This document shows, piece by piece, positions 7,326 to 62,877 of a stretch of DNA of 64,000 nucleotides. The stretch's first letter is position 1. Each line of letters begins with the position of its first letter. Position numbers and translations under genes: made by a program. The DNA lies in NCBI RefSeq assembly GCF_019649055.1, contig NW_026570505.1:1-64000 (forward strand). The letters run 5' to 3'. Source of the stretch: Paramacrobiotus metropolitanus. Lineage: Eukaryota > Tardigrada > Eutardigrada > Parachela > Macrobiotidae. Below the pieces are notes generated by a model. The model was not told the origin of the DNA, searched no databases, and worked only from the letters and a program-made list of their open reading frames with translations.

Positions 7326-7338
7326 AACCAGCGCCTCC

Positions 7339-11150: not shown

Positions 11151-11191
11151 TGTTATCGAATCACTAATGGGTCAGGTCGGTTCTTGTAGAA

Positions 11192-13896: not shown

Positions 13897-13908
13897 GAAG
13901 GAGGGAGA
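13897..13908 (+). promoter_or_regulatory. Element D polypurine tract
   Basis: GAAGGAGGGAGA directly abuts the 3' LTR start TGTTACG, the expected place and composition for the plus-strand primer. Confidence 0.85.
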
Positions 13909-34429: not shown

Positions 34430-34800
34430 TGCCAGAGACCGCTCACTCGAGGCGGTAGACACCTCTCGTGGCTTGCTCTGTCGCCCGCACGCAAATGGCC
34501 ACGCCATTCGTGCCGCTCATATACGCTGACGTAGTCAGCGTATACTTTGTCTACGCTGACCAATCAGCGCATTCGCAATGCACTTTTGGAGGTGTGGCCC
34601 TGCCTACGAGCGATGCCATGCTTTGCGGTATCAGCTGTTTCGCAGCTGCAGCACGCCGCGGCATTATTACGTTATCACCGAGCTCGCTAGCAGCCACTTT
34701 TCCACAGCTTTTCCGCATTGGTTTTTCTGTTGGTTTTTGGTTGCCTTATTATTGCATAATAAAGGAGATCGCTCTCTTTTCATCCTGCTTCTGTGTCACA
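34430..34800 (+). repeat. Element B 5' LTR
   Basis: 371 bp from TGCCAGAGAC to TGTGTCACA. It carries an 11-bp perfect palindrome (34520-34544), CCAAT at 34560-34564 and AATAAA at 34758-34763. The left edge is fixed by the loss of similarity to the 3' copy and by the MULE coding sequence outside. The right edge is set by the PBS and by alignment with the element A LTR end. Confidence 0.78.
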
Positions 34801-34807
34801 TCTGAAA

Positions 34808-34821
34808 TGGTAGCAGATGCG
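34808..34821 (+). promoter_or_regulatory. Element B primer binding site candidate
   Basis: TGGTAGCAGATGCG lies seven bases after the LTR. Alignment with element A (TGGTAAGCAGACCG) continues for about 50 bases. Confidence 0.58.
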
Positions 34822-38561: not shown

Positions 38562-39759
38562 ACCTTCGCCAAGGGCTAGCCCACCACTCAATAACCTGGA
38601 GGCCATCGACCGCTACGCGAAAGCCAGCGCAAAAGCCAACAATCGTACCGCTATACCACGCTTCGACAGCGACAAAACCATGGTCAAGGGATGGATTGCA
38701 CAGGTCAGAAGGATCTGTAAGCAATCGTCCGACTTAAACAAGCCGGACCCCGACTTCATGAGCCGAATTTACGGAGCCTTGACGAAACCGGTCAAGGAGT
38801 GGTACATGGGCCAGATGACTCGCGAAGAAGGCGATGGCTATACGGTCGAGGAACGGCTCCAGAAGATCCAGGAGCGATATGGCGACGATAACCAGCAAGC
38901 CAACGCCCTTTGCGAGATCACGAACCGTTTTTACCGAAACGGTTCTGAGACAACGGAGCAATATTACGATGCGATCCTGACTCTCCAGGCATGCGCCAAC
39001 TTGGACGACACCATGACTCTGCACTTCCTCAAAAACAACGTCCATGAGTTCGAACTGCGCCGCTCTCTGGACATCAGACTGCCCAAGTCCCCGACAGAAT
39101 TTCGGGACTACATTCGACAGTTCACGTCAGGAAAGCCCCAGTACGACGGGAAGGCGGGTCAACAATACCAGTTATCCGGGCGGCCATACCAACGCCACCA
39201 GCCCAGGTCGTACCACAGACAAATCCGCCGGCCTACTATCCCCCACAGATGCTTTCACCACAACCCCAGGTGGATCCAACATACACCGCTATCGCGGCTA
39301 CGAATCTCATCTCCCCACAACGTGGGTCCACACCGCCTAACGGTGGCAGTGGCAGCTGTGGCTAAGTTCGGAACCAGGGTAACTTTGGCTATAGCCAGGG
39401 GAATAGTGGCGGAGCACAAAGGGGCGGCTACTCTAGGCCAAAACGCCAGCTTCAGCGGAAGGCGAGGCGGCAACAGCAATGGCCTAAGACGCAGTGCCCA
39501 GATCCAAGGAGGCAGCGGAGGGCAAACCGGCCAACGCCAAGCGCCAAATTCCAGAGAGGCTTGCAAGGCGGAAGACATGTACATTGACCGCATTGAACGT
39601 ATGCTCGAAAGGTGGGCCAAAGACAAAGCCATAACTTGCAACTTTTGTCTTTGGGGAAACCACAAGACCAATGAATGCGGCTACGCCAACAGGAACCTCC
39701 AGGATAACCCTAACCAAAACTGGGTCAAGAATTGGCGTGAACGGTACATGAAGGGATAG
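38425..39759 (+). CDS. Element B gag capsid and CCHC nucleocapsid
   Basis: 444 open codons with the capsid (IPRFDSDKTMVKGWIAQVRR, TEQYYDAILTLQACANLDD, LHFLKNNVHEFELRRSLDIR, SPTEFRDYIRQF). It ends in a zinc knuckle C-x2-C-x4-H-x4-C (CNFCLWGNHKTNEC) and NPNQNWVKNWRERY. The part between 39150 and 39550 may be out of frame with the original, since A and C have Gly/Arg-rich sequence there. It is the best preserved gag segment of B. Confidence 0.87.
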   Translation: MRPRWSSYLTGYMGGLHPTEPSNISQAQRHRHCSGPQVAVLQITPEPSPRASPPLNNLEAIDRYAKASAKANNRTAIPRFDSDKTMVKGWIAQVRRICKQSSDLNKPDPDFMSRIYGALTKPVKEWYMGQMTREEGDGYTVEERLQKIQERYGDDNQQANALCEITNRFYRNGSETTEQYYDAILTLQACANLDDTMTLHFLKNNVHEFELRRSLDIRLPKSPTEFRDYIRQFTSGKPQYDGKAGQQYQLSGRPYQRHQPRSYHRQIRRPTIPHRCFHHNPRWIQHTPLSRLRISSPHNVGPHRLTVAVAAVAKFGTRVTLAIARGIVAEHKGAATLGQNASFSGRRGGNSNGLRRSAQIQGGSGGQTGQRQAPNSREACKAEDMYIDRIERMLERWAKDKAITCNFCLWGNHKTNECGYANRNLQDNPNQNWVKNWRERYMKG

Positions 39760-39795
39760 CCAACCGGAGCACAAAATCCCAATCGCTTTGGCCTG

Positions 39796-40096
39796 GTGCC
39801 AACCAAACAAACCCGACCACAACGTGGTAGTGGAAGGAACGGCAACCGCATTCAGTCCACCGGTTTAGAAAGTGGGTCCGGCGGCGGAAACCGTCAAAGC
39901 GGCACTGACAGATACGGCGGACAGCGGGGATTTCAAACACCCGCGACCGAAGCCACTGCTGCTGACCGACCAGCAGTTGCAGCTAACCAACAATATGACG
40001 GCTCTAACCAGCCAGCCAACTGCGGAAACGCCTAAGGTCACTGGCAACGGCAACTCACCTGACCTATTACCGGAACCTAAACCGCCGGATAACTAA
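39796..40096 (+). pseudogene. Element B gag tail and remnant start of pol
   Basis: The Gly/Asn/Arg-rich gag tail ends at TAA 40033-40035. The bases TAAGGTC match the element C gag end, but the pol ATG (CGATGA) has become CACTGG. In another frame LLPEPKPPDN recalls the PTEPPDKDN start of pol. Confidence 0.55.
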
Positions 40097-40392
40097 CCCT
40101 CCTGTTAAACTTTCTCCAGCTGCTAGAAGTGCAGCGGATCCGGAACCGGCCGCTCAGCCAGCCGTCGGCGGATCCAGGTTTTGCGCCCGACGGGCGACTA
40201 AGCCACATGAACCCAGAAGTGCGGTCATGCCAGGACGCGTAGAAGTCGCGCCTGGACTCGATGGCCCATGAAGTGAGGCCAAATCGACAGCCGTCCAACC
40301 GACGGCACAGACGGTTTTCGGAGCCTGGGTTAACTCCAAGGCCGACCGATCACGTGAGAAAGCGAGACGTCGCACCGCGAACATGACTTATC
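40097..40392 (+). other. Element B deletion junction where protease and RT palm are missing
   Basis: Between the pol start and the RT thumb only about 300 bases remain, without recognisable protease or RT motifs. In element A the same interval spans more than 4 kb. Two AGAAGT words lie here. Confidence 0.6.
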
Positions 40393-41213
40393 CTAGATCG
40401 GCGTCAGAATCATCCTCCAACAGCGCACCGGAAGGAGGGATGCTAGATTCCTGATAAAACTGTCGAAGTGCGAGTTTGGAATGGAAAAACTCCAATTTGT
40501 CGGACACATCCTTAGCAAGGTCGGTGTCCATACTGACCCAGAGAAGGTTGCGGCCATCACCGAGAAACAACCGCCCAGGACCGAGCGCCAACTTCCCTTG
40601 TTTCTTGGACTCGCCAACTATTATCGGAAGTTCATTCTGGGCTACGTCCAGAAAACTTCCAAGATGTACGAACTCCTGCGGATTGAAAGTTCGGTCAAGA
40701 ACGACTGGACTGACGCCCACACCGCCGATGCCGGAACTGACGCCCAGTTTTTAACTAAATAAAGAGGGCCCTAACGGAAGCCCCAATGTTGGCCAAATTC
40801 GGTGCGACCAAGGGGACCAGCATCGAATGTGATGCAACTGGCGCAGGCATCGGAACCATACTCAGCCAAGACTCGAGGCCAATCGCCTACGCGAGTCGTG
40901 TCCTACATGGAGCTGAGCAAAACTACGGCGTGCCGAATGGGAATGCTTAGCCGCAGTGTGGGCCGTCCAAAAATTCAAGCACTACATCGATCACGGACCT
41001 TTCACAGTGAGGACGGACCACAGAGCCCTGACCAACCTGCTCAGATGCGAGTCTAACCGGCCCGGCATCAACCCTCTGATTTACTCGATGGGCCCTAGCC
41101 TTACAGGGACGGGACATCACCATTGAGTACAAGCTAGGCACCTTCTGTGATAACGCCGACGCGTTGTCCAGATGGCCACTCGAACGGGATGACGACAAGG
41201 CCCACATGAAGAG
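40393..41213 (+). pseudogene. Element B RT C-terminal end and RNase H
   Basis: LSKCEFGMEKLQFVGHILSKVGV and PRTERQLPLFLGLANYYRKF are the RT thumb/connection. RNase H follows with ECDATGAGIGT, EWECLAAVWAVQKFKHYIDHG, RTDHRALTNLL and DNADALSRWP, so its four acidic residues can be read across frames. There is a stop before RNase H and a one-base deletion near 40930 (GVP instead of GVTE). Confidence 0.8.
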
Positions 41214-41702
41214 TTGGACCATTTCCCGAGGATTATAAAGAACTTCGAGGATTATAAAGACAAGATTCCAGGCCGCGTCATAAAAGTGCGAAGGCTGCAT
41301 GTAACTGATGAGGATCCCCCAGACAATTGGGAACAGCCTTACCTTCCTGATTGTAACGCATTCATTGATTGGAACGAATTTAGCACGGCGGACATACGGG
41401 TTATCAATATACCGACGCCCAAACCGGACGAACCAGACCCCGTGGTCCCGCCGTGTCTAGAAAAAGTTACGGACCGCACCGCGCAAGAACTGCGGCGGAT
41501 GCAACACCGTGATCCAACCTTGGCCAAGAAAATCCATGAGTTGGAACATCAGATCGAAATGGACAAACGGTCCAAATTACCTGAACACTACCAAATGGAT
41601 AAAGGTGTGCTGTACCGACTCACCGAAATTAATGCGAAGCTCGAAATTAAGACTCGTCATTTTACTTTTCATGCGGAAAAACATTATCCAGGCCCTTCAT
41701 GA
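41214..41702 (+). CDS. Element B RNase H-integrase linker and start of integrase
   Basis: 162 open codons that correspond to the charged linker in element A (about 990-1330 there). The shared landmark is DIRVINIPTPK here and EVRVINIPAPE in A. It leads into YQMDKGVLYRL, the N-terminal edge of the integrase. Confidence 0.75.
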   Translation: MDHFPRIIKNFEDYKDKIPGRVIKVRRLHVTDEDPPDNWEQPYLPDCNAFIDWNEFSTADIRVINIPTPKPDEPDPVVPPCLEKVTDRTAQELRRMQHRDPTLAKKIHELEHQIEMDKRSKLPEHYQMDKGVLYRLTEINAKLEIKTRHFTFHAEKHYPGPS

Positions 41703-42284
41703 CGGAAAATCGGGAAACCACTTTGGATACCGCAAGACCATTGAAGCCGCTAATCTCAGGTACTAATGGGACCGTATGAGCAGCGACAAACACGACTACA
41801 TCGACGGATGTCAGACGTGCATCTTTGGCAAAGTACCGCGGCGAGCTACCAACAGTAAGCTGCAGCCGACCGACGCTGTCGCACCTTGGTACCGCGTCTT
41901 TGCTTACTTTAAAGGACCGTTACCGGTGACTGAGACCAAGAGGTACCGGTATATTGCCGTCGTGGTAGACCAGATGACGAAGTTCACCATAGCCTGGCCG
42001 ACCAAAAACCTCGGCCAAGGAATTTGAAAAGTTTTTCGTCGAGGAAGTCGTCCTCAAATATGGAATGCCACACACAATGCACTACGACCGGGGGACGCAT
42101 TTTACGGCAAAATCCTTCGCCAAAGTTGCGAAAATTTTCGGCATCGAACAAACCTTCGGCTCCACTTACCACCCGGAGGGCCATTGCAAAGTCGAAAGCC
42201 AGATGCAAACGATCTGGCATGGAATTCGAGATTTTGGCGGAGGCGGCGACTAAAATCGTTGGCACCGGGCTTCACCATACGTGA
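41703..42284 (+). pseudogene. Element B integrase zinc-binding domain and catalytic core
   Basis: HDGKSGNHFGYRKT and DGCQTCIFG supply an intact H-H-C-C set. The first catalytic Asp is replaced by Tyr (AYFKGPLP versus ADFKGPLP in A). The second Asp (YDRGTHF) and the Glu (HCKVESQMQTIW) are present after a frameshift near 42010. The missing Asp alone would inactivate the enzyme. Confidence 0.83.
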
Positions 42285-42664
42285 TTTCCGGCATGAACCG
42301 TGCCGTTCACGCGACCACTGGATTCTCACCGTACCATATGTTATTCGGACGGGAGATGACCATACCGCAAGACGTCCTCGCTGGGACCAACATCCCAGAA
42401 AATTTTACGACTAACGAACGTTATGTCCAGAGGATGCAGCATTGCCTGAGCCAGGCACTTGAATTTGCGAAAACACGCATTGAAGAAAAGTTCCTAAGTG
42501 ATGCGGCCATCTATAACAAAAACAAGGCCCAGACCGAGTTCAAGAAGCGGGACTTGGTCACCCTGAAGAATATGGTGGATGACCTGACCAATCCAAACAA
42601 GTATGAGGGCATCTACATAATCCTCGGAATTCCTAAGCCAAACACGTACTGGATTCGAGAATGA
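42281..42664 (+). CDS. Element B integrase C-terminal domain
   Basis: 127 open codons with MNRAVHATTGFSPYHMLFGREM, the typical end of the core, then the helix and the GPY/F-like module (YEGIYIILGIPKPNTYWIRE). The module continues after a TGA as TVRADRLKPFLN. Confidence 0.8.
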   Translation: MISGMNRAVHATTGFSPYHMLFGREMTIPQDVLAGTNIPENFTTNERYVQRMQHCLSQALEFAKTRIEEKFLSDAAIYNKNKAQTEFKKRDLVTLKNMVDDLTNPNKYEGIYIILGIPKPNTYWIRE

Positions 42665-43435
42665 GACACCGGTGAAGAACTCACCGTACGTGCCGATCGC
42701 TTGAAGCCGTTCCTAAACCCGGACGGCCCAAGTCGCCGACACACTTGCGACCAAAAGGATGGCGGCGACGCCGAACCTGAACCCACAGAGTCGGGACACA
42801 ACGCAGGACTCCCACAAGCCACGGAGCCAGGAAGGCGCAAAGATGCGGCTTCTCCGGCAGCTCCTCCCTAGACTAAACTGGAGAAGCTGCTGAAGAAGCA
42901 AAAGCCCGGAAAAGAACCTTCCAAGAAACTTCTGGACGAGCAGCAAAAGACTCTGAAGATACCTGGTCTTAAAGGGCCTGAACCAGAACCAGAAGACCCG
43001 GCCCCAAAGCGTGGCCGTGGCCGGCCTCGAAAGACCAAACCGGCCTTCGGGACGCCAGCCTTGACCAAAGTTCAAAATCAGCCATTAGCCGTCATTGACC
43101 CAGAGTCAGTACCTGCGGAACCTGAAAACGTATTGGCCGCACCTGACGATCCTAAACCCGAGCCAAGTCTACCAAATCAGAGGCTGCAAGTGAAGCCAAA
43201 AAGACCAAAGTCGCCTAAAACGCCGAAGGCAACCCTTACGGCTCAGCAGGTCCTAGAAGAGGACAAAGTCGCTGATGATGAGGCAGAAAAAGACTTACTC
43301 ACTCGTATAACTGCGGGTCGAGCAAAATCAGAGAAAAGCTCAACGAGCAAAAAGCAGAAGGCCAATACGCTCGAACCGAGCGTATTGGATAAGACGGTTG
43401 ATAAGGCTGGACAGAATGACATACAAAAAACTTAG
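42665..43435 (+). pseudogene. Element B integrase tail with AT-hook
   Basis: Lys/Pro/Glu-rich tail. RGRGRPRKTKP at about 43007-43040 is an AT-hook, matching the tail of element A. A 124-codon open part (43061-43435) follows, rich in Lys, Pro and Ser. This is the last segment that pairs with element A; what follows in B has no counterpart in A within this window. Confidence 0.7.
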
Positions 43436-43785
43436 ATTCGGCCTAACTAAACAGACTTAGAAGTAGTCTCCCACGAACGTTACCGTGATCTGCTGCCTTA
43501 ATTTTCTAACGTAAATTACTTAACTTTGACTGACATAGGCACCTTAGAAGTAGCTAGCCTAAAACCGGAACTCACCCTAGGTAGGAGTCTAACGTAGCGT
43601 AATGGGTCTCGTAACAGTGTCCCCACAGAACGATGGAATGACGACGACGCAACGATTGCTCCGACGACTCCGACCGAAGTAATCGATCACACCCTTATTC
43701 AAAACCGGAATCCCGGTCTGGCGCATTTTCCACTCGGTCGTCTAAGCGGCTACCGAGTGTACAGGTACCGAATATACGAGCTAAC
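43436..43785 (+). other. Spacer between element B pol and the extra block
   Basis: No coding match. Two TTAGAAGT words (43457 and 43544) occur. The extra block starts right after it in the same direction. Confidence 0.5.
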
Positions 43786-44157
43786 TTGACTGCTGAACAG
43801 CTGGCCAACATGTCAGTCGGACCCGGGCCACGGGCCGACACACCGCTACCGCGGTCTCAGCCACTGCCACCTCGAGCCATTCCGCCGCAATACTTGGCGC
43901 CAGGGACATACTCACATCCCACTGGACTCTTGGTCAACGCAGTAGCAGCCAGCAGTCAGCCAAGCTCCTCGTCGGGCCAAACGGTCCGGCGATATCTACG
44001 CGACCCAACAGGCCCGCAACCAATTCTATATGGTGGTCAATCGGCCAACCAGCCGGTTATTACGACAGTAGCAGTCGGACCAGCGATCCAGACTCCGCCG
44101 GTCCATACTGGACCAAGGCCACGCTACACTCCGCCGCCATACTACAACCCACATTAG
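43786..44157 (+). CDS. Extra block, Pro/Gln/Tyr-rich segment, copy 1
   Basis: 123 open codons, low complexity, ending TPPPYYNPH. The last about 230 bp recur at 45240-45470 with roughly 85-90 percent identity. No domain is recognised. A LINE fragment follows directly. Confidence 0.5.
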   Translation: MTAEQLANMSVGPGPRADTPLPRSQPLPPRAIPPQYLAPGTYSHPTGLLVNAVAASSQPSSSSGQTVRRYLRDPTGPQPILYGGQSANQPVITTVAVGPAIQTPPVHTGPRPRYTPPPYYNPH

Positions 44158-45239
44158 GCGCCGTTCAAATATTACGTAACGCAATTTTTCGCATTTTTTT
44201 TCACCACCCCCCACCCCGTGTAACAAGCCGTAACAAAATAGCTGCATCCATGTGGCAGTACGTAACGGACGCGGCACCCCCCCCTCTTGAAACAAAAATT
44301 TTTAGTCTCTAGTTAATTCATTCGAAAAAATCCAAATCTGAACTACCTCTCACCCAATTCGCACCAAGCTTTACAATTTATAACAGATAGGAACACACAA
44401 ACCTTTCCACCCACACAACACAACCTGGCGAAAAAGCTAAGCTTGCAACGTAAAGCTCATTTAGATGTCTGCGTAATGGGTATTCCGCTGCCTACTAATT
44501 CGGGATACGAAAGTACAGAGGAGTATGCGAACGATTTGAAGTTTCTTTTGGTAGATCTCGGCGTAAATGTACGTTTTGTTAAAATCTTTGAGCGTAAAGA
44601 GGGTAACAAGCGTAGCACTACATGTGCACGTATCGGCACATTCGCTGACTGTGAAGAATCGCTGATGGCCGCTGACTTGTGGCCAACCAATGTGTCGATA
44701 CGGCGTTGGGAGTATAAGGCTCCTGTCCAACAGGCGGGAAATGTGAAATCGCGAGTCTTTCATCGCAATCAGCGCCGAAAGACTCGCGTAACGGTGCAAA
44801 CTCAGTGTCCAACCAGCCTCTTGTTAAATTTAAATTTTCAGCGTTTAGTAAAATAACTATAAAACTTTGCAACATTAATGGAATACTTTCAAAGTCGGCT
44901 TATGTAAAACATTACCGCAGTGACTGTGATATTGTTGGCTTGATTGAGACGTGGGATAGACCTGAATATCCCGATTCAGTATTTGCCGATTTGCGAAAGT
45001 TTAACGTTTTTAGAAGACCTGGAACACTGATCCTCACGGTGATGTATGCATAGTTGTGCGTAAAAATCTTAAAGCAGTTCGTCGTACAGATTTAGAAAAT
45101 AATGACCTTGAACCGATTTTCGACAAAATTCAAGAGATTAATGTTTTGGTTGCCACAATTTATTTCACCCCCGTCTCGTGTAACTATTGACATCCCAATA
45201 TACATTGAACATTTTAGAAGTACTCCGCATGAAAATTTT
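44158..45239 (+). pseudogene. LINE fragment: ORF1-like segment and start of an APE endonuclease
   Basis: AT-rich compared with its flanks. 44443-44856 encodes DVCVMGIPLPTNSGY and a later ATCARIG-type strand (TTCARIGTF), possibly an RRM-like ORF1 domain. 44805-45053 starts KLCNINGILSK and DCDIVGLIETW, the N-terminal NxNG and ETW motifs of APE-type LINE endonucleases, followed in another frame by CIVVRKNL. RT is absent. The fragment lies exactly between two diverged copies of an element B segment. Confidence 0.7.
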
Positions 45240-46596
45240 GGTCAACGCAGCAGCGGCCAGCCAAGTTCTTCGTCGGGTCGAACGGTCCGACATCACTCGC
45301 GTGGCCCAGCAGGCCCGAGACTAGTTTTGTATGGTGGTCAATCGGCCAATCAGCCGATTGTCACAACTGTAGCAGTCGGACCAACGGTCCAGACTCCGCC
45401 GGTACATACTGGGCCAAGGCCACGCTCCACTCCGCCGCCATACTACAACCCATATTACGGATATCCACCGTATACTGCGCCTAGACCTTCGAACCAGCCG
45501 CAGCCGGACCACAATCAGTGGCGATACCCACCACCGTGGGCATATCCGCCACCACCTTACGGATATCCACCGCAGTTACGGCGGTTATGATGGATATGGC
45601 GAACCGCCATATTATCCTCCAGCGGCAGAACCTGAACCCACGGTTCAGACGCCGACTGAACCATCATTACCAGCCCCAAAACCGGGACTTGAGGCATTCC
45701 GAACGGAACAGCCTCTGCCACCCCAGCCAACCGCATCGGGTAATCGCGATATGCGCGATTTCCCATTACGGGAATTTGTGGACGGGGTGTACACTGTATA
45801 CGATCGGCCAGAAGATGTCCCACCAGCAATGGCGGCCCAACTTGGCTTCAACGAACCGGACCAGACTGGAGGGCCAGCGCTGAACCCAGTGTTGGCCGGG
45901 CGTGACCAGGCTGTCCCACCGACAGAACCTGTGTCCTCGCCAGCACCACAGCCAGGCGAGATGATATGTATGATCGAACCGGTATCTACGCCATCACTGC
46001 GGTCAGAGTCCTCGGACGAACTATTGGCCAATGGCCGAAGTCCACTCTACATCCTCCAAAAAAATTTGGCGAAGGTAGAGAACTCCATAAAGGAATTGGA
46101 GCAGATAATCCGCGAACTAAATATTCAGGACCCTCACCACCGTGACTTGGTCCAGCGGATTATCAAAGACCAGAATGAGTTCCGATGCTTAGCGCGCGAT
46201 CTCAGCGAATAAATCGCAATCCGCCGGGCCCAGCATGAAATATTTCCGTTGCACGACCAAACTGGTCAGGCCCTACTGACGGCAGCCCGTGAAATGAGAT
46301 GGCAGCTGGAACAACACAGGATGGCTCACCAATTCCGGATAAGAGAATCCGTGGCACCATCGCGCCCGCCTCCAGCGCCATCGGCACCACCTCAGCCGCT
46401 TAACTCGACAGTTGTAGTAACCGCTACAACAGGGGAAACTTCAGCCGCACCAGTGGCCCCGCCTGCGCCAACCGACGCGGCAATAGCCACTGGATCGGAA
46501 CAGCGTGAACTAGCGTCATCCCCGAATGACTTACGGGTCATTCCAGAGCCAATGCCCCTTGACCGCGAAACATCACGCTGTGGAAGCTTTAAGTGA
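45240..46596 (+). pseudogene. Extra block: Pro/Tyr-rich copy 2 and helical module I
   Basis: Copy 2 of the Pro-rich segment continues into PYYNPYYGYPPY repeats. After a frameshift near 45590 a frame runs to 46596 with one TAA at 46210-46212. It holds LREFVDGVYTVYDRP and then a helical stretch (LYILQKNLAKVENSIKELEQ onward) ending before a Pro/Ala-rich linker. Function unknown. No signal peptide or membrane segment is seen, which argues against an envelope protein. Confidence 0.55.
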
Positions 46597-47104
46597 AGAA
46601 ATCCGCGCAGTTGTCCGTAGCCTAACAGGCACGGACATTGCAACCATACGAAGAAGAGTTGCTTTGGACGCGGAACTTCAACGGATTTTAGAATACCTGA
46701 TGCGACTCCGACGGGACATGCTGCGCTATATGGAGAAACCAATGGACACCGGCAACGCCGGACCACAAATGCGCAATTTTCTCAACCGAGGATATCAACT
46801 CGGCCTGATCGAACAAGCACTTCAACGCGTGTTGCCGAAACCCCGACCGGGGCAATCAACACGCGTAGCCCGAACTGGACTCCTGGTTCCAACTCACTCC
46901 TCAGACCGTCGACCGGCGGAAAAACTGAGACACCATTATAGGCGCATTATTCAAGTCTCAAATGAAAGACTTACGGCGGGACCAGGATTCAGTCGGCCAA
47001 CCACTCCGTCCCAATCGGATACGGAGACCGACAGGAAAGGCTGGATGGCTGGATTGACATTGAATGGCTGCATCTGCCCAACCCAATCCCTGTACCAGGA
47101 TTAA
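46580..47104 (+). CDS. Extra block: helical module II
   Basis: Read in another frame from EEIRAVVRSLTGTD, then long amphipathic helices (ALDAELQRILEYLMRLRRDM) and FLNRGYQLGLIEQALQRVL. The frame differs from the segments before and after, which share one frame with each other, so two compensating frameshifts are likely. Confidence 0.5.
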   Translation: MEALSEEIRAVVRSLTGTDIATIRRRVALDAELQRILEYLMRLRRDMLRYMEKPMDTGNAGPQMRNFLNRGYQLGLIEQALQRVLPKPRPGQSTRVARTGLLVPTHSSDRRPAEKLRHHYRRIIQVSNERLTAGPGFSRPTTPSQSDTETDRKGWMAGLTLNGCICPTQSLYQD

Positions 47105-49791
47105 CAGCCCAGCCTGATCATATGGTTGCGCCAGAACGACATTTTCACCCTAGACCTACGTCACTGGTACGGCCACCATAAATTGCGGAACGCTTGGAAC
47201 AGATTATGCGAGCCACGACGGCTCGCCCTATCACTTCGCGAATGGGTGCTATAGCTAGCATCATACAGATGGCGGATCCCAGTGAACCAGGCCGCCGGAC
47301 CCTTCGCTAACAGTGGGAAGACGAACAAGAAGCCTGGCGCCGAAGGTTAAGCGAAGTGGACAGTGGAACGATCCAAATGACAGTCCAAGTGGCGCTACAC
47401 GTCAGTAACCTGATTAGAGACGCCGAGGACATCGATCGTCGCATGTCCAACCAAATAAGGGATCTAAGCCCATTTGACCCAGAAGCGGTCCGGCTGACCA
47501 AACAGCAGCAAAGCTTATCCCATCGGATAGCCCTGCCCAGAGAACTTACACCGAACAGCACGATGCCTACCGGCGATTCGTTGCTTGTTGTGGAGCACAC
47601 CATAAGGTGGTTCCGCACATTTATCGAAGATTACTGGAAAGTCCAATGACCAGGCCCGTCAACAACGGAACGCCCAGGCGAATTCGATCCAGTTAACGAA
47701 TGGCAACCAGACTCAGCGGCAGCGCCGACCATTGTATAAGCATCAGTAGCCTCAACATCAGTGGACCCAACTTTGGTCCAAGATCAAGCAGTGGCCCCAG
47801 CACCAACCGTGCCTGGGCCAACCTCAAGCCAACCTGTGGACACTGCCACACCCGCTACCGCGGACGACAGTATGGAAATCCCACCGCAGGAAGCTGAAAC
47901 GGACGAGAGTATGCTTGATAAAACCTTCGAACTCTCGCCGGAGAAGCAAGCCCAAGAGTCAGCACCAGTCCAACCGACTGGTGCACCGACAAGCCCAATG
48001 GTCGTCGATGAGCCAACGGCATCATCAGACACCACGCCTACGCCAAACCGAATCGAAGGCGATATATCAGGTGGTACTTTGGTCGCCCGCCCAACGGCCA
48101 GGAAATCGGCCGGAGGAAAGCCTGACACATTGGAAAGAACGGCCACACCAGCTACAACTGGTGGCCCACAGTCGCCCAGGTTCATAAAGAAGAAGAGGAC
48201 TCCTCCAGAAGCCGAGGAACCTCATTCGCAGCGGTCACTCCCAGCATGGAGAGGACCACCTATGGACTTAGAGCTTCCCGGCCCTACCTGGTCCGGACCG
48301 TCCATACTTAAAAATGCGGCCAGCCAACCGACTTTGACACTTCGTGGTCTACCGACCAAGAAGAAGAAGTCACCGCCGAAGAATTTCCCTGGGAAAGGAC
48401 ATGTGCTCTCACCACCAGAGGAGCGGCCAATGCCATCAGGGACAAAGGTACCATTGCGGAACGAGCTTCCGAAGAGTCATCGTATTCGGTTGACCCCAAC
48501 GGGCCCAACCAGCCAGTATCAGATGGACCCGCATAATGAACTGGTTGGCGAGATCATGGAAGTCGATCTACGCTTAAACCTCACTGAAAAGGACATGCGC
48601 CAGCGGATACGCGCCGGCGATCCGACCTTGACTGAACAAGAGATTGACCGCACCAAACGAGGTTGTCAGTTATTGGTCCAGGAACGGAATATCCTCATCA
48701 GAAGATTCATGGCTATGAGAAACAAAAGCCAAGCCCTTCGCCAGCGCAAGCTGTCTGGTGAAATCATCGAACATGCGATGTACATTCGAGGGGCACACAT
48801 TAATCCGAGAGCTGGGACAGTCGAACCGCGCCCCAGGCCAGGCCAGCCAATGGAAGACCAACTCCCACCGGAGGAGGTCGAAAGCGATGAGGAAGTCCCC
48901 CAATTCCCGGCGGATTATTATGGCATGCTGCCCAGTGAAGATGAAGAAGACTTGGACAAGGACGTCCAAAGAGTCTTGTATGAGACCGCACAGGCCAAAT
49001 CTCCTCTACGGAGGAGATCGCCCCGTAAAAGTCGGTCCCCAGAAAAACGGACTTCTCCTGGACGCGCCACATCACAACTGGCGCGCATGCCAAGTACGCC
49101 GGCCCCAGAACCAGTAGCTCTTAGGTTCACACCGAGCCGGCCAGGTAAATCACCGGACAAGGAGAAGATGGACACTTCATCCTCCCAACAGCCGACAATG
49201 ACCATAACGGTGGAACGAATCCCGCCACCCACGTAACCGGCAAAAATCGTTCTTGAACTTCCTACCGAACAGGTGGAAGCAGACTCGGCCTTAATGCCCA
49301 TGAGTGCTCTCACTCCAACGGTGCAGAGGCACCTTGTGGTCCACGCCGAACACAATCACCCACGGCAGTATCCTTACCTTCTCAAGAAGATACAAGAGGC
49401 TAAGGACCAGAATAAGCCGGAGGATTACGAAATGTTCACCGAAATGCTCCGCCAGCTGGTGGTTAAGATGGTGCACGACTACTGGAACCGAAGGCGCAGA
49501 CGTCTCTTCACCTCACCGGAGAAGGATCCAAAGATGGCAGAACGGCTATCGTCAACAGTGGTGCCACCGAAGACACAAGTGCCTCCGGAGCCCGAGCCGA
49601 TGGACACATCCCCGTCAGGGCCAGTTGTGGCTACGCCACAAGCTGAGCCAGTGCAGGCGGGGCCATCGAAGGCCACTCCGACACCAAAAGCACCAGCGGA
49701 CCAGATCCAACCAGGGACGAGCCAAATGGCTGTTGTCCCAACAACCTTGTCAACTATGCCAGCCAACGTGGACGACATACCCGTTGGCTAA
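47105..49791 (+). pseudogene. Extra block: helical modules III-V with Pro/Ser-rich linkers
   Basis: One frame spans most of this stretch with a few stops (near 47180, 47310, 47648, 47737 and 49234). Module III (47340-47560: LIRDAEDIDRRMSNQIRDL), module IV (48527-48740: NLTEKDMRQRIRAGDPTLTE) and module V (49320-49505: YLLKKIQEAKDQNKPEDYEM) share an I-R/Q-x-x-D/G-x-x-P pattern then a Leu/Arg-rich helix. Between them are Ser/Pro-rich linkers with SPRKSRSPEK. Nothing matches a known retroelement protein. The intact open part 47761-49236 is 491 codons. Confidence 0.55.
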
Positions 49792-49817
49792 CCGATAACT
49801 TTCCCCAAGCTGGGACA

Positions 49818-51409
49818 ATGGAAGATTTGGCGTTTGGCGCATCGGTGATCCACTCGGCCAACTCACAACGAGCTAAACAGCCGAGAGAGGCCAAGAAGCC
49901 AGAGATGGCCAAACCGGCCTCTCGCCAAACACACCTCAACCTTGTGGGTGCCAGGCGGAAACATCACAGGCCGCACCGAACCCGGAAGCCGAAAGGAACC
50001 GCCAGAAGAAACAAGAGGACAAAGACAAGAAGAGTCGTGAGGCCAAGATAGCCCAGCTGGAAAACCGGCTGTCAGGCGACAACGATGTCCAGGTCCTATC
50101 GGGCAGCCCGGACAAACCAGGCCCCTCACAACCCTTAGGCGATCCAAGGCCATTACCTCCCCTCCCATCACCATATAGGGAGGAAGACATCGAACCAGTC
50201 CCAGAAGGGGACCCACCCTCCGAGGAAGTCATGCTCCCATCACCTTGGGACGACGAAGCCGAACTTCCCGACCCAGGACCAGAAGCCACTTACATCGAAA
50301 TCCTAGCGTGTTACGCCGACCAATGGGTGGCAGCGGCCAGGATATTGAGAAGCGAATCGGGCCGAGACCCTTACCAGTTTCTCGTCAGCGTTCTACGCGC
50401 CCGCATGGCATTCGGACAAGAATTTAGAGGACTTCCGCTCGCGGACCGTGTGCTGACGGCACCCTTTATGCGACGGCTGGTCACTCTTTTTCTAGACTCA
50501 GGCCTGCTGGTCCGCACGCACCGCGATTGGACCGACTTGGCAGAAATCCACTTGGCCCATCGGCCATCTGGAGTCTCGCGTAGCGCGGATAATTACTTCC
50601 AACAAATCTGCCGGACCATTGGGTAGTTACACGACCCAAGAGGTTCCACCTTGATGGACATCTCCAGGACGATCAACGCCCTTCAATGTAAGGGAACGAT
50701 GGATCCGTGGAAATTGAACAGCCAACTTGTGAACGAATTACTTGCACTGGTCAGAGACGGCGTATTAGAAACGACCAACGCCATCCGCGCAGAACCATTG
50801 CGCTTCGCTGTCCCGGGATTCATCCCACAGAAGACCCAATGGTCTCTGTATGTGTCGCATGATGTTGGCACGAGATGGGATCCGAGCAGAAAGAAAGCGG
50901 TAGGAGCGAAGGACAAAGACCTTAAAGGCAGGGCAAGAGAGGCATATAACATGACCCAACTGGCCGAACTGCCAGGCCCAAAAAACCTGCCCCAGGAAAA
51001 GCCCACAAGACCATCGGTTACTCGGAGGGAGAACGCTCTTCGAAAGGAACAGCAGGAGGCAAATGTGCGTGCGGCAGGCCAACGGCCCTCGCCGCGGGAC
51101 GCGGTGTCACTGCCTAACGCAGCTGGCCAGTCCCGACCGCCTTCATCGGCCCCATCAGCCTCTTCAATGAAGATTCGAAAGACTACGGCCAAGAAGGGGC
51201 GCGGCAAGAAGTCGCCAACCCCGCCACCTGACGACTCGGATCCTGAGGACTCTAGACCAGAGGACTCAGAGTCAGAAGAAGATGAAGAAGGGGAGGATCA
51301 AGAGGACCAAGAAATGGCATCCCAGAAGTCCGACTCCGAAGACTCTGATGACGATGACCAGAGCCCTGGTGAACTGACCATCAACGTCCCACCGGACCAT
51401 AGCATGTAA
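49818..51409 (+). pseudogene. Extra block: charged coil and winged-helix-like domain with acidic tail
   Basis: A charged coil (KKSREAKIAQLENRL, near 50050) leads into 50231-50626 (YIEILACYADQWVAAARIL, LVRTHRDWTDLAEIHL). After one in-frame TAG (50624-50626) the same frame runs to 51409: ISRTINALQCKGTMDPWKLN, VNELLALVRDGVLETT, then Lys/Arg-rich KKGRGKKSP and a long Asp/Glu/Ser tail. The helix-helix-strand rhythm suggests a winged helix, but this is only a visual guess. Confidence 0.5.
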
Positions 51410-51596
51410 ATTCCTCCAGGCGACGAAAATTAGGCACCTACCGGTGACCAGAGCATGGAGCACCAGGGCGAAACACAAGGTCTCAACAAGGGTAACAGGG
51501 CGGCGCAGAAGGCGCAGGACCCAGTGACCGGAGCGCAGGACCGCCTGACTTGGTCGTACTACACGTGAGGGACAGATTCTCCCCAGAATCGGACTC

Positions 51597-52373
51597 ATGC
51601 GAAATGCGCCATACCTTACAGGACCCATGCCCAGCCAAGCCACGCATTGGTTATGTCTCGCCACCGCGATCGACAGTGGCCAGGAAGTGGCCGGGCGGGA
51701 TCCATCCAAGAAGATGAAGATCTCCAGCACGGACAAAGGATGGGCATACGTTAAGGCCGCCCTGCAGGCGTTGTCCCGAACGGGTACAACCTACGCCACA
51801 GGGGATATGGCCTATCAGCTCATCGAAAGATGGGAAGGCCCATGGCTGTCCAAGTCCAAAGTGAGGCAGCATGTCCAGATGGCATACAATGAAGGAGTCA
51901 TCTTGCGAACTCACACGCCCAACGGCGATATCTTCTACACGTTCCCACCGGAAAGACGTGATGCGGCCCCTCAAGGATATTGGGAATGGCGCAACGCCAT
52001 TTTCACTGTGCTGACCACCACACAGCACCCCCTCGGCCTCACACGCGGAGAAATCGCCAACCAACTGCTGGGCCATTGCCTGTTGTACTATATTGCGCAC
52101 CACCCGCAGCTGATTGATGGAACGAAATACGCCTCGGGCGACGGCCGGGACATAGACCTATTCCCCATTTTCGAGGACGTCAGATATGTCGTCAAGAAGA
52201 TGCTGCGCGAACGTTGGCTCGAGCAAACCGTTGATGAGAAAGAGGTCCAGCAGCGCTACCGAAAGCCGAAAGATCCAACTGATCGTTATGGCCCTCGTCC
52301 TGCCGATGTCCCACTTTGGCTTCCACCAAAAAGAAGCAGAAGCGAAAGTCCTATCACCAGCGACCCAGCATAG
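51597..52373 (+). CDS. Extra block: 258-codon winged-helix-like protein
   Basis: KGWAYVKAALQALSRTG, YQLIERWEGPWLSKSKVRQH and AYNEGVILRTHTPNGDIFYTF read like a helix-turn-helix with a wing. A second similar half (WEWRNAIFTVLTTTQHPLG, LTRGEIANQLLG, VVKKMLRERWLEQTV) suggests two tandem copies. The tail is basic (PPKRSRSESP). It is open throughout, which is notable in so decayed an element. Start uncertain. Confidence 0.5.
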   Translation: MRNAPYLTGPMPSQATHWLCLATAIDSGQEVAGRDPSKKMKISSTDKGWAYVKAALQALSRTGTTYATGDMAYQLIERWEGPWLSKSKVRQHVQMAYNEGVILRTHTPNGDIFYTFPPERRDAAPQGYWEWRNAIFTVLTTTQHPLGLTRGEIANQLLGHCLLYYIAHHPQLIDGTKYASGDGRDIDLFPIFEDVRYVVKKMLRERWLEQTVDEKEVQQRYRKPKDPTDRYGPRPADVPLWLPPKRSRSESPITSDPA

Positions 52374-52499
52374 AACTTGCATAGGCATAGGGGGGGGCGG
52401 GTTGTAAAATCCATAGGGACGTAAACTCATAGGGCGTAATCATCATATGGACCAGTCCTAGAAGTTGACGTCCCCAGTTGTTCTGCATGTTTCATTTCT

Positions 52500-53390
52500 G
52501 TTACCACAGAGAATGGGACTTACCCCGCAGCCGAAGTATGAATCGAGATGCGCGGACTGCAAACGGAACAGTTTGGACTTGTCCGGCCGGAGGGAAAACT
52601 CTCGACGATAGTACTTCCCCTGCGCGTACCACTTGCGAGCCGGTTTTCGCGACGAAAATGAAAGAGCCAATTGCTTCTACCTAGAAGTGGTGAGAGGCAA
52701 CTTCGACGCGTACTGGCACATGACCAACCGAGACGGACGCCACCTGATCCCCCTACTAAGGGATCATGAACAGATAGAGATCCACGATCTCTACACGCAG
52801 CGTAGCGGCGACAGACTCCCCGGCTGGAGCAGCATGGGCACACAACCGCCAACTCTCAGCCAAACTGCGTTAGAGAAGAAGGCAGAACGCGATTATCAAC
52901 GTAACAGTCGGTCCCGTAACACGGGCTTGACCATTCATCAGGGCGCGGTCAAACGGCCGTCCAGAAAACCCACGACCAGTCCCACCAGCGCCGGCAATCG
53001 CCAGGCCCTCAGCCCGACGGGCATGAGGTGTCAACTTCGGCGACAGACGACCAGTTCATAACCGCCGTGAACAAACAGATGGTGGACCGGGTGGCCAAAC
53101 AGCTAATGGAAGGAGGACTGCTGGACGCCCAAAAGGGCCAGGACGACTCGACGCCTACCCAACAGTATGCGCCCGCGCCACCGGCACCGCTACCGCGGCA
53201 GCCAGATGACTTGCACCATTACATTGAGAATCGACACCAGGACCAAACCGGTCACCAGAACCGTGGCCGTCTTCAGGAGCGCCCGCCACAAACGCGGACC
53301 TCGCCTGGAAAGAGGAAGGAGGAAGATGGCTTGGTTGTCTCCCGCACTAACGAGAGGCCTGAGCGAACCTTTAGCTCAGTGGCTTAGAAT
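52500..53390 (+). pseudogene. Extra block: Cys-containing and Pro/Arg-rich segment
   Basis: Before 52633 one frame reads RCADCKRNSLDLSGR, a CxxC that may be part of a zinc finger. 52633-53061 continues with CFYLEVVRGNFDAYWHM and a Pro/Ser/Arg-rich tail, and 53028-53387 in another frame is Gln/Pro/Arg-rich. No family is recognised. Confidence 0.42.
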
Positions 53391-53408
53391 ATCAGCATAC
53401 ATGTCCCA

Positions 53409-54280
53409 ATGGACACGGATACCGCACCGCCGTCATCGGACCCACCGGCCCGATCTGACGCAAGCACCAGTGCAGCGGACTTTGGCCCATACAAATACGC
53501 CTCGGGCCAAGGCGTCAACATCCGGCCACGTTCCCATCGGGAGGTGACGGATTACATTATGAAGGCCATTCCATACCCACGGAATAAATGGGCCCAGATT
53601 GACGCCATCATCCAGGACCTGTAGAACTTTGTCAGGTCGTCCGGACTTGAACGGGATTTCCAGCAAAAAGACTAACCCCACACCTTCAGCATGGCTGAGC
53701 ACATTGCAAATCGTGAGGAATACCCGATAGTCCGTGACAGCGCACTATCGTGCAGCACGGATGTGAACCTGTTGAGCGAACCCATTACACGTCCGGACTG
53801 GAATGACTTGTGCGAACTGCACCTATGCGATGACCAGTTGGATCTCGCCAAATATCTGGCTCAGTTCGTCCTACCGGACGCGAACGCCAGTTTCCTGGTC
53901 AAAGGAGCACGGGCTGCAATGCGAATCCCGCGCAGACCGGAGAATTATGAAAAATCCCACCGGGGACCTATATGTATTCATGGAACGGCACAGTCATGCG
54001 TATCTTCGCGGCCAGACTTGGTCATTTGCGAAGCCACTGGGAACTTGAGGTTGCCTGCCGGCAAGGGATGATCATCCCTCAACTCCTCACCCATGTGGCC
54101 CTGCTCGGAAACCAGATCCATGAGATCGAAGAAGGAGTCACGATACAGAGCGTACTGAACACCTTCAGGAGCCGCGCCAAAGAGTATCGCTATCGCCAGC
54201 CGAGCGACCACGATAAGGCAGCCGAGGCGTTCGTTAACCGAACGGCCGGGCGAAAACTTCCAACGAAGTTCCGCACCTAA
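53409..54280 (+). pseudogene. Extra block: C-terminal segment with a second DWNDL motif
   Basis: 53409-54071 is one frame with a stop at 53622-53624. It has TRPDWNDLCELHLCDDQ, which echoes HRDWTDLAEIHL at about 50540. 53972-54280 in another frame (RIFAARLGHLRSHWELEVAC) seems to be its continuation. This is the last coding-like part of element B. Confidence 0.47.
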
Positions 54281-55139
54281 CGCTCAGCGGCATCGTCTTC
54301 GCAGAACCAGACCTTGGCTGACCAATGTGGTCAAGAAGCCCAACCGGCTGGTATCTCCAGTCACCAGTACTAAGAGACGGAAGAAGAACTGGCGCTCATG
54401 GAAGAAATCGTCGTCGACCCACTGCACCCAGAACGGGCCGACGAGTGTCATGACCAAGGACATTCCTGCATGTCGGCCATAGAAGTGGACCGATATTGGC
54501 ATAGAAGTGGCCCGGTCGCCTAGAAGTGGGACCATAATGCTGAAGCGGAACTTGACCACCATCGTGGGTACAATCCAGCGGTTGTTACCCTCGCCCAACA
54601 AACGTGGCTTACGGCCATGTTACGTCTACCTCACCGGACCTTAATTCCTGAGTCTTAACCGGATTCCCCGGAATGGCTAAGGTTTAGCGGCTGGGACCAT
54701 GAATTTGGCCTGGCCATCCCAGACCATCCGACGGAGTCCACCGGACCGAACTTGGCGCGAGATAATTTCCCCGGCATGGAAGAGATTCAGCGCCCGGAAG
54801 GTTTCGACGGCCCGCATAGAAGTTGCGACAAGCCGTGGACCAGTCCTGGCCCGCATATAAGTTGCGACAAGCCATGGGCAAGCCCTGGCCCATAGAAGTT
54901 GGACCAGTTCCGCTATGAGTCTGGGGACCATATGCGGCTCACGAGTCTAGCTGCTATACCAGGCAAGAGGGACCAGTGAGTTAATGGGAGCCACATAGAG
55001 ATTGTGGTACACCCATTTTTGCATGCACCGCCCAGAGGCAAAACCAAAGATTTCACCAGCGCCCAGAGGCCAAACTAAGATCCTTCTAGTCAGCAGACCG
55101 GATACTCCGTGGTAAACGCCTACCGGCGCCCACAACTTA
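54281..55139 (+). other. Element B 3' region with AGAAGT words and a 39-bp tandem repeat
   Basis: No coding sequence recognised. YAGAAGT or ATAGAAGT occurs at about 54480, 54501, 54520, 54816 and 54891. 54811-54905 is a tandem repeat of about 39 bp (CCCGCATAGAAGTTGCGACA onward), two full units and part of a third. Confidence 0.6.
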
Positions 55140-56628
55140 AATTTTTTGAAGTCTAGCCAGGCCCATCTGATGTTTTCGTCAGAAGCCTTTAATTTTTGTT
55201 ATGGCCACGGTCTCAAAAAATTTGCCTATCTGACATGGTAGTTAACTCATGGCCCACGGCCAGTGAGACGGACAAGATTCAACGAATCTTTAACTTTGGC
55301 CCGCCAATTACCTTGGCGCGCCACCTTGGCTTGCCATCCACCTTGGACCATCGAAAAAACGACTAAGTCCATTTTGGCCCGCAAAACGGTGTGGCCCGCC
55401 GAAAAAAAACTAAGTCCATAACGGAGAGCTAAACGCCGGCCACACAGGGCCTTCACGTCCTGCACCCGCCAGAGACATGCCCCGACATACAGGAGCTCCA
55501 TAACCCGCCCAAGGCATGTCAGCGACCGAGTTGGACCGCCCCAACGAGTTTGGTCCATCACACCACTTCGGTCATGGGACTTAGAAAATTTCCCACTATG
55601 GCCCTCTTGGACTTAGAAGATATTTGGCCCGAGATGCATGACCCAACCGGGGCGCACTCGTACTTAGAAATTTTTGGCCCGAGGCGCACGACCAAACCGG
55701 CATGCAGGGCCAAACCAGTTGAAGTTAGAAACCCAAATGGACCACCCGAACGGGATCGGTTCATTGTACCATTCTGGGCACTGGGAAGGAATCCGACAGG
55801 AATCCCACTCCCGCCAGAGCATACGGGACCGGTCCAACAAAGGCATGGTAGAGACTAAAGTATGGACCACTCTAACGGGTTCGGTCAATTGCATCATTTT
55901 GGTCATCCCCCATCTGACATGTTGCACCACTCCTTTCCAGAGGCCTTACTCACAAAAGCCTCTTATGGACCGCCCAACCGGGACTGGTCCATCATACCTT
56001 GAAGGGGACAAAACTGTCCTTGCAAAAGCAACGGTGCCTTCCATTCTTTCCGCACAGCTGAACTACTACACTGGACACTGTGGACATCTCTGGGAACCGT
56101 CGCCCCGGTTCCACAAGACCAGACCAATCCTACCAGATTAAGCGGACCGTTGACTAGGACCCGTGTGTGCAGAATCTGCCCTGTGGACAAGCCTAGTCGG
56201 AATGAGTATTTTTGTTTAGTTTTTAACCACACCTAATTTTTCTAGACTTAATAACCAAAGAAATTGATGTTCTTATTTAGCCTTCTAACCAAACGAATTG
56301 GCTTTGGGATCTCTAACCATGATCTTCCTTTACTTTAAATCTTACTTGAATTGTGATGTTTACTTTAATGAGCCTTTTAAACTTTATTTTTTTACTTCAC
56401 CGACCAAAGAAGCCTCATCACATCACACTCGAACCTGCAGCACACAAAGTGCCCTCCAGATTTCGGCCGTTCGGTGCATGCACCGCGGGTCTGGAGACAG
56501 CGGCCCTACCAGGCAACAGACAAAGTGTCATCTGGCCCTACCGGGTATCGGATCCTGGCACCCTACCGGGTTGGCCAGGGGCAGAGTCGAAAGGTGCTCG
56601 CAGGAGCTCCCACTCCCGCCTAGAGGCA
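55140..56628 (+). other. Element B 3' untranslated region with dispersed repeats
   Basis: No gene seen. A unit GGACCRCCC-AACGGG-TYGGTCCATCATACC recurs near 55533, 55739, 55865 and 55959. A CCCGCCAGAG-CAT word recurs at 55465 and 55807 and again at the LTR junction (56612-56628). Short open frames are not conserved. Confidence 0.55.
56612..56628 (+). promoter_or_regulatory. Conserved 17-nt sequence before the element B 3' LTR
   Basis: ACTCCCGCCTAGAGGCA directly precedes the LTR TG. The C-family LTR on the minus strand has ACTCCCGCCCAGAGGCA at the same place (25346-25330), 16 of 17 identical. It sits where a polypurine tract is expected, though it is not purine-rich. Confidence 0.65.
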
Positions 56629-56878
56629 TGTCAGAGACAGCTCACTCGGAGCGGTAGACACCTCTCGTGGCTTGCTCTGTCGCCCGCACGCAGATGGCCA
56701 CGCCATTCGTGCCGCTCATATACGCTGACGTAGTTAGCGTATACTTTGTCTACGCTGACCAATCAGCGCATTCGCTATGCACTTCTGGAGGTGCGGTCCA
56801 GCCTACGAGCGATGCCATGCTTTTTGGTTTCAGCTGTTTCGCAGCTGCAGCACGCCGCGGCATTATTACGTTATCACC
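56629..56878 (+). repeat. Element B 3' LTR, truncated after 250 bp
   Basis: Starts TGTCAGAGAC and matches 34430-34679 at about 94 percent by eye. Similarity stops abruptly at TTATCACC, before the polyadenylation signal. The palindrome has one change (GTTAGCG for GTCAGCG). Confidence 0.82.
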
Positions 56879-57744
56879 AGACTTGAGCCGCCTTTTTGCG
56901 GAGCGGGAAAATTCTCCGCCATTCCCGCCCCTCCGAGCTTTTTTGGAGGGCGGGAGCGGGCGGAAGTTTTGAGTTTGGTGGGACGGAGCGGGGAGGAAAA
57001 AATCTGAGCGGGCGGGAGCGGGGTTATTTTAAAGGCGGGCAGAGATCAAGCATAAAATAAATTTAAGATCATTTATGGAAATTTCTTACTATTTTTTATA
57101 GAATCTCCAACGGTTTTTGCGGCGAAATCACCTGTTGGCTGCGCGCTTCGCGAGAAATTGGTAACTGGTGTGGTCTTGAAAAAAGCAAGAAGAGAAAACA
57201 TAAAACATACCAGAAAACGTTACTTCTGACATAATTATGCTGTCAGCTCAAACTCAACACAGGCATTAAAAATGACCTTTGATTAACAGCAAACGGTTAA
57301 AGCAATTAACAACAAAACGAAACAAAACAATTTAAACATTCGTATAAGGAGAATTTTCTGCTAGGGGAAAACGCAGTTTTCAGAGCTATGTCCATAGCAT
57401 TTAATTGGTTGAATCCTCACAGGACCCCATTTTCTGTTGTTGCATCATCTACGGAGCATACCGGCCATATCCGTCGGAATCTATCCAGACCAAACCCAGT
57501 AGCTTACGATTGGCTGACCCCGCGTCTGAAAGCCATCATGCTCTGCTCGCGAGACTGGAGTAAATCCAGAACGTCTTAATGCTAAAATATTGATAATCAT
57601 TGACGTACTATATATCGCAAAAAACGATAGTATCCTGGACTGTAGTTGTTCGTAAATTTCCGCGGTTTCTTTGGTTTCTGGCGTGTTTTTCTTTACAATT
57701 TACTTTTCAGTACGCAATAGTTTTTCTTGAAACTTCTTCGAATC
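56879..57744. other. GC-rich minisatellite then non-coding sequence
   Basis: 56895-57040 is rich in GGGCGGGAGCGG units with an imperfect hairpin (CCCGCCCCTCC / GGAGGGCGGGA), and G-quadruplex formation is plausible. 57040-57744 is AT-rich; the short open frame 57388-57579 has no motif. Confidence 0.6.
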
Positions 57745-57836
57745 TCCTAACCTAAGAAGCCCAAGAAATCTAAGAATAACCTAAGAAACCTAAGAAACCT
57801 AAGAAACCCAAGAAACCTTAGAATAACCTAAGAAAC
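57745..57836. repeat. CCTAAGAAA microsatellite at the element C insertion site
   Basis: About nine imperfect 9-10 bp units, directly abutting the LTR TG. The same unit forms the centre of the foldback-like element (22100-22175). Confidence 0.8.
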
Positions 57837-61086: not shown

Positions 61087-61091
61087 GGTCG

Positions 61092-62869: not shown

Positions 62870-62877
62870 AGATTGGT

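Follow-up and report, generated by a model that had tools for sequence, protein, structure and literature searches.

What is the long run of coding-like sequence that follows pol in a Ty3/Gypsy-like element of the tardigrade Paramacrobiotus metropolitanus, and does it belong to the element or to the genes of the host? The locus lies in a stretch of 64,000 nucleotides, hereafter the window (RefSeq assembly GCF_019649055.1, contig NW_026570505.1, positions 1 to 64,000 of the forward strand), and the element is here called element B. A first-pass annotation, made from the sequence alone, described about 10.5 kb of same-strand coding sequence (43786–54280) between pol and the 3' long terminal repeat (LTR) and suggested a new class of giant LTR element. 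The block is what remains of an accessory module, now decayed, in a giant Ty3/Gypsy LTR retrotransposon of P. metropolitanus; the element has the order LTR, primer-binding site (PBS), gag, protease/reverse transcriptase (RT)/RNase H/integrase with an AT-hook-like tail, open reading frame 3 (ORF3), ORF4, non-coding tail, and LTR. The element is real and widespread in the genome, is about 24.8 kb long in a close relative (C29) and about 27–33 kb in a diverged clade, and carries two orphan genes under selection. The ORF3 and ORF4 proteins are probably DNA-binding.

Copies of the module in the genome

The genome searched comprised 169,799,020 bases in 533 contigs, the window being C285:1–64000. 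A 274-residue piece of ORF3 has at least 142 matches, in tiers of 55–100%, 38–41%, and 32–35% identity. The list for this piece covers the 141 candidates scored out of 294 and that for the integrase tail the 150 scored out of 852; the counts are lower bounds. Spacing was taken from 138 of the 142 rows, four second fragments (C10, C22, and C23) being left out and one row at 50% identity falling outside the tiers. A listed integrase tail stands no more than 20 kb upstream, in the same orientation, in at least 44 of 69, at least 11 of 20, and at least 24 of 48 rows of the three tiers, and its distance from the ORF3 piece is 7.7–8.2 kb in 36 of the 44, 8.3–9.7 kb in nine of the 11, and 9.4–10.6 kb in 20 of the 24. 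Among the listed matches, integrase tails on the opposite strand near the ORF3 piece number one, zero, and zero by tier.

The first-pass annotation had proposed looking for copies of element B without the block and for the block alone as a host gene family. For the former, the best 58 of 150 rows for the integrase tail (74–100% identity) were set against 90 of 116 ORF3-start rows. ORF3-start sequence lies within 6 kb of 53 of these 58 tails, at 887–1671 bp, and some ORF3 piece follows 56, the tails in C160 and C41 having none among those listed. As to the latter, the block is found inside LTR-bounded elements with 4-bp target-site duplications (TSDs) and not on its own as a family of host genes. 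Both outcomes favour the first-pass annotation. The C29 element, about 24.8 kb long, runs from 1233022 to about 1257854 between LTRs of the form TGTCAGA...TCTGACA with the TSD TAAC, and its LTRs, about 390 bp long, show one difference in 391 bases compared. An element of the diverged clade, C3 2469453–2499462 (about 30.0 kb), has the TSD TAAG and LTRs of about 440 bp that are identical over 441 bases compared; the range of LTR length is about 0.38–0.44 kb. The sequence TGGTAGCAG stands directly 3' of both LTR types. To judge by identical LTR pairs, the lineage appears to have been recently mobile.

Same-strand LTR matches also bracket diverged-clade ORF4 at C54 632023/662014, C52 180330/207249, C143 216092/244698, and C3 3413306/3446046, with spans of 27.4–33.2 kb. 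These four brackets are putative LTR pairs, and the last of them has an extra LTR match at C3 3415155. In the window itself, 15462–15899 matches the LTR of the diverged clade (the 30-kb elements) at 79% identity and is perhaps a solo LTR.

Element B in the window

The LTR starts, which the first-pass annotation had placed 22.2 kb apart, are at 34430 and 56629 (spacing 22,199 bp; 94% identity over 250 bp). The pol frame ends at 43435, as had also been claimed, and its integrase tail contains KRGRGRPRK, which we take to be an AT-hook-like motif; a Pfam scan of this tail gave no match. The features of the element are as follows.

34430..34807, + strand, 5' LTR, 87% identical to the C29 LTR, the C29 comparison setting its limits; its end is placed by the junction word across LTR and PBS, with one mismatch at 34801
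34808..34821, + strand, PBS-like sequence TGGTAGCAGATGCG, the same sequence standing directly after the C29 LTR
38599..39807, + strand, gag remnant with a zinc-knuckle-like CNFC...H...C, pieces 68–76% identical to C57 gag
40049..43417, + strand, protease, RT, RNase H, and integrase remnants (tblastn with C57 protease and pol queries)
43007..43033, + strand, presumed AT-hook-like motif of the integrase tail
43436..43632, + strand, gap between pol and ORF3 with three CTAAC words (three of 2000 shuffles reach three)
43633..52360, + strand, ORF3 remnant, frameshifted and interrupted (tblastn with intact C110 ORF3)
44155..45250, + strand, foreign insert of about 1.1 kb within ORF3, flanked by 43950–44156 and 45251–45457
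50297..50840 (end approximate), + strand, first conserved region of ORF3 from an alignment of copies, possibly the first tandem winged-helix pair
51681..52343, + strand, second conserved region of ORF3, the first half of which (about 51705–51971) models as a winged helix
52477..54442, + strand, ORF4 remnant (tblastn with two C110 ORF4 pieces, 62–66% identity)
55229..55241, + strand, further copy, inside the element and 3' of ORF4, of the LTR-end/PBS junction word
56629..56878, + strand, truncated 3' LTR (about 250 of about 380 bp), adjoining another repeat

A non-coding tail of about 2.2 kb separates the ORF4 remnant from the 3' LTR. Since this LTR is cut short and adjoins another repeat, element B is an old copy in which the target duplication can no longer be read. 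The repeat next to it is a dispersed one at 56876–57177; of 40 matches listed in one genome search, 16 fall on this part (83–91% identity). The two flanks of the ORF3 insert are copies, 83% identical, of one 207-bp stretch of ORF3. The insert is LINE-like (long interspersed nuclear element) by eye only, with an endonuclease-like piece at 44718–45050, and one piece of it had no Pfam match.

Coding state and selection

The claim of a single 10.5-kb coding block needs to be divided. Same-strand coding remnants do fill it and reach even slightly wider, but they represent two genes and a non-coding tail, lie in several frames, are frameshifted, and are broken by the insert. A GGCCAA-rich word style was likewise said to be common to the block, gag, and pol. 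The word is above the shuffle maximum in ORF3 (17 counts; mean 3.65 and maximum 10 in 200 shuffles), gag (16; 2.15 and 6), and pol (6; 1.42 and 5), but ORF4 has no clear excess (2; 0.85 and 4).

The C110 ORF3 frame spans 2,540 codons from stop to stop. Frames of 2,531–3,227 codons hold 11 of the 142 ORF3-piece rows, ten of them in frames of at least 2,540; most rows lie in shorter frames, and hence most copies are broken or cut. ORF4 has 713 codons in C3 and 71 matches in the genome, 63 of them longer ones, and 58 of these 63 are listed with a frame of 709–794 codons, some with internal stops. In size, ORF3 is about 2,500–3,200 codons and ORF4 about 710–790 codons.

The ratio of nonsynonymous to synonymous substitution rates (dN/dS) between the window and C110 is 0.25 over 2,434 codons of ORF3 and 0.19 over 441 codons of ORF4. 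It is 0.13 over 707 codons between the ORF4 of C3 and that of C104, and the median for the C-terminal region of ORF3 is 0.12 (323 of 378 pairs, 28 of 31 copies). These ratios indicate that both are proteins under purifying selection. Chance open frames were rejected on the value over 2,434 codons of ORF3, and the 142 matches of the 274-residue piece likewise exceed chance. Over codons 1–35 of the ORF4 frame in C3, dN exceeds dS, and the public ORF4 model P0001 has a different N-terminus; the true start of ORF4 is therefore probably elsewhere than in the simple C3 frame.

The ORF3 and ORF4 proteins

The first-pass annotation recognized no env, dUTPase, chromodomain, or other known accessory gene in the block, in keeping with which no Pfam family scored above cut-off there. 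NCBIfam gave no match. A search with the C-terminal third of C110 ORF3 scored 7,966 candidates, none of them a relative at E ≤ 0.001, and further protein searches found one, then two proteins, all from P. metropolitanus. As far as these searches reach, neither ORF3 nor ORF4 has relatives outside P. metropolitanus; only candidates sharing most exact words were scored, and distant relatives could be missed. The relatives within the species have public models, P0001, P0002, and P0003 (LOC129596996, LOC129594469, and 'titin homolog'), and because they are annotated as ordinary genes the gene set contains retroelement proteins.

The first half of the second conserved region of ORF3 was modeled with three helices and a two-stranded wing, so that one ORF3 domain is predicted to be a winged helix. 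The repeated winged-helix-like segments of the first-pass annotation thus have support for one domain. Its identity to the winged-helix domains of Fur, KAT6A, SAMD1, and linker histone H5 is 8–18%, which ties it to none of them; a winged-helix family outside this comparison may fit it better. Tandem homology of the two conserved regions was considered and set aside: hhalign aligns them in register (P 0.0055), but with a probability of just 6.7%. Repeated helical segments had been proposed as well. In one relative the first matches of such units were mostly their own seeds, and in the leave-one-out comparison, which is the actual test, four of seven units beat all 200 shuffles and three did not. 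The composition of ORF3 is proline-rich and mostly disorder-like. A transmembrane check, also proposed at the outset, gave no clear membrane segment in ORF3 or ORF4 by hydropathy. The maximum over 19 residues is 1.31–1.49 in ORF3 of C110 and C3, 1.39 and 1.23 in ORF4, and 1.77 in P0002, where the peak is within the first conserved region, ahead of the C-terminal one. The cysteine content is 0.2–0.9%.

Gap words and the LTR-end/PBS junction

The word CTAAC occurs seven times in the pol–ORF3 gap of C110 and six times in that of C57 (0 of 2000 shuffles for each), and is absent from the ORF3–ORF4 gap of C110. CTAAC resembles animal branch points, and a CTAAC-rich gap therefore makes a spliced subgenomic mRNA the likely route to ORF3.

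A 13-base word across the LTR end and PBS, TCTGACATGGTAG, has 111 exact places genome-wide, compared with one for the reversed control. Placement was done for 100 of the 111 matches and 60 ORF3 starts (four merged from two fragments each). Among these 100, 22 are within 600 bp ahead of an ORF3 start, 39 precede a listed integrase tail by 6–16 kb, the position expected of a 5' PBS, and 39 are elsewhere. Inside elements, the word stands ahead of ORF3 and after ORF4 at L039 1383 and 1536, L055 1156 and 1027 (minus), and L040 2139. The internal places include 55229–55241 of the window; two carry one mismatch, and the C110 copy after ORF4 has one mismatch. The diverged-clade form of the word has 44 exact places (control 0), none of which is paired at the 12-kb spacing found in the close clade. 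These missing pairs counter a conserved role for the internal PBS word, which we keep as a lead only.

Could the element be a composite of two retro-units, in which gag-pol follows the 5' PBS and a once-separate ORF3–ORF4 retroelement is flanked by copies of the junction word? Template switching at PBS-like words would have fused the two, those words would still serve for template switching or subgenomic RNA, and the product of the second unit would be a DNA-binding scaffold from a protein class found nowhere else. We consider this quite improbable.

Relation to known elements

C57 has RVT_1, RNase H, H2C2, and rve domains in one frame of 1,913 codons and an aspartic protease in the preceding frame, which is the protease–RT–RNase H–integrase order of Ty3/Gypsy elements (Metaviridae). 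The closest solved relative of pol by score ranking is Ty3 Gag-Pol 7q5b (320 bits, best of 81 sequences). LTRs of the TG...CA form, a short TSD, and a PBS adjoining the 5' LTR are present in C29 and C3. Pfam found no chromodomain at the integrase C-terminus, either in the C57 pol frame or in the window tail, and after pol there is neither a clear membrane-spanning Env segment by hydropathy nor a Pfam env family. About 790 residues ahead of RT in the C57 pol frame (L055 1173–6911, minus) have no Pfam match; two stretches there may be dUTPase-like, to judge by eye.

Planarians (Burro) and plants (Ogre) are already known to harbour giant Ty3/Gypsy elements with additional coding capacity (PMC6431247). 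The tardigrade element is accordingly a new lineage or variant, marked by its new accessory module, and not the wholly new class first suggested. Burro, as described there, shares a Ty3/Gypsy pol, a total of about 30 kb, and much extra coding sequence, but its extra domains (BIR, ankyrin, BCL2-like, MATH, and env-like) are placed within the gag-pol polyprotein or in ORFs upstream, whereas the tardigrade extras are two separate ORFs after pol; the two are set apart here by this description of Burro. Pfam found no BIR, ankyrin, BCL2-like, or MATH domain in ORF3 (C110, P0002, P0003) or ORF4 (P0001), and no Burro-type domain in the C57 gag, protease, and pol frames, the only other parts scanned. 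Ogre likewise has extra ORFs of unassigned function, but the same text attributes its size mostly to LTRs of 1.9–6.5 kb, far longer than those found here. Plant LTR elements with additional ORFs are described (PMC7264820) with a conserved extra ORF also between pol and the 3' LTR; the tardigrade element differs in having two ORFs of the sizes given above and an animal host. In Drosophila, sORF2 of the MDG1 group is an accessory protein replacing Env, as ORF3 and ORF4 would be, but it is short and transmembrane (PMC11952523), whereas ORF3 and ORF4 are large and show no clear membrane segment. A tardigrade repeat study (PMC11071193) concerns Hypsibius exemplaris and Ramazzottius varieornatus, and its available part makes no mention of Paramacrobiotus. 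No paper was found on Paramacrobiotus and retrotransposons, nor, by the titles and abstract openings listed, on such an element, in a search that had most subscription journals and Repbase outside its scope.

Possible functions of the module

A nuclear role facing DNA or chromatin is suggested by the predicted winged helix, by the AT-hook-like motif of the integrase tail, and by the absence of any clear membrane segment. The best joint explanation, for which we judge the chances about even, is a giant Ty3/Gypsy accessory module in which ORF3 is a nuclear scaffold acting with the integrase tail and ORF4. Both proteins would come from a subgenomic mRNA whose splice acceptors lie in the CTAAC-rich gap between pol and ORF3. 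ORF3 would be a long, largely flexible scaffold that contacts DNA or chromatin through its winged helices, and with the integrase tail and ORF4 as partners it may hold the complex of cDNA and integrase on chromatin; alternatively, it may sit on the element's own DNA. The outcome would be help with the choice of integration site, the countering of silencing, or both. Several observations weigh against this explanation. Foldseek gave no hit at E ≤ 0.001 for the ORF3 model, much of which has a predicted local distance difference test (pLDDT) score below 50, and the single-sequence model of ORF4 (pLDDT 39) was not used. A shared fold shows no function, and the partner of a winged helix may also be RNA or protein. 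In the young C29 copy ORF3 occurs in shorter frames only, with 592 codons at the start and 328 at the end, through decay or assembly error; if the breaks are genuine, some recent inserts did not make whole ORF3.

The main rival gives ORF3 and ORF4 a structural or packaging role, as a scaffold letting the particle hold an RNA genome of 25–30 kb. The length of ORF3, the four helical units above shuffles, and its proline-rich, disorder-like composition would suit such a role, which we regard as unlikely but with an appreciable chance of being right, as the C-terminal winged-helix domain(s) and the integrase tail point to DNA instead. ORF3 could also be a DNA-binding regulator specific to the element, or an anti-silencing factor, and act on the element's own repeated non-coding words without integration targeting. 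This is improbable: the predicted fold and the repeated words in the pol–ORF3 gap and after ORF4 are consistent with it, but the diverged-clade word lacks an internal second copy at the same spacing.

That the block is a host gene family, or a captured host gene beside decayed elements, is very improbable. Public annotation does enter these proteins among the ordinary genes and names one a 'titin homolog', but the fixed spacing and strand after integrase and the position inside LTR pairs with target duplications speak against neighbouring host genes; an ancient capture would still be compatible with these. Least probable of all is an env-like region for cell-to-cell transfer, despite the location between pol and the 3' LTR and the small transmembrane protein used by Drosophila elements without Env (PMC11952523). 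Env was rejected on the hydropathy maxima, with the P0002 peak outside the C-terminal region, and the low cysteine content also speaks against it.

Significance and other features of the window

With this element, tardigrades would join the few animals with giant Gypsy elements, and size here comes from two conserved extra genes, not long LTRs. The many copies, from identical LTR pairs to old wrecks, would form a natural series for asking how an RNA of 25–33 kb is copied and packaged and why two large orphan proteins are kept. They also carry a warning, in that the tardigrade gene set includes such proteins as host genes.

Two more Ty3/Gypsy elements of the same wider lineage lie at 1–8100 (minus) and 59639–63865 (plus), with pol pieces 34–68% and 46–64% identical to C57 pol, respectively; both run out of the window. 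A 278-bp direct repeat (11191–11468 and 13908–14185; 99% identical, 2,717 bp apart) perhaps represents the LTRs of a short young element. A host gene at 22446–23702 (minus) has a glycosyltransferase family 92 domain (E 2.4e-12). Two 9-base minisatellites, at 22099–22174 (AGAAACCTA) and 57749–57836 (AACCTAAGA), have one and the same unit, rotated.

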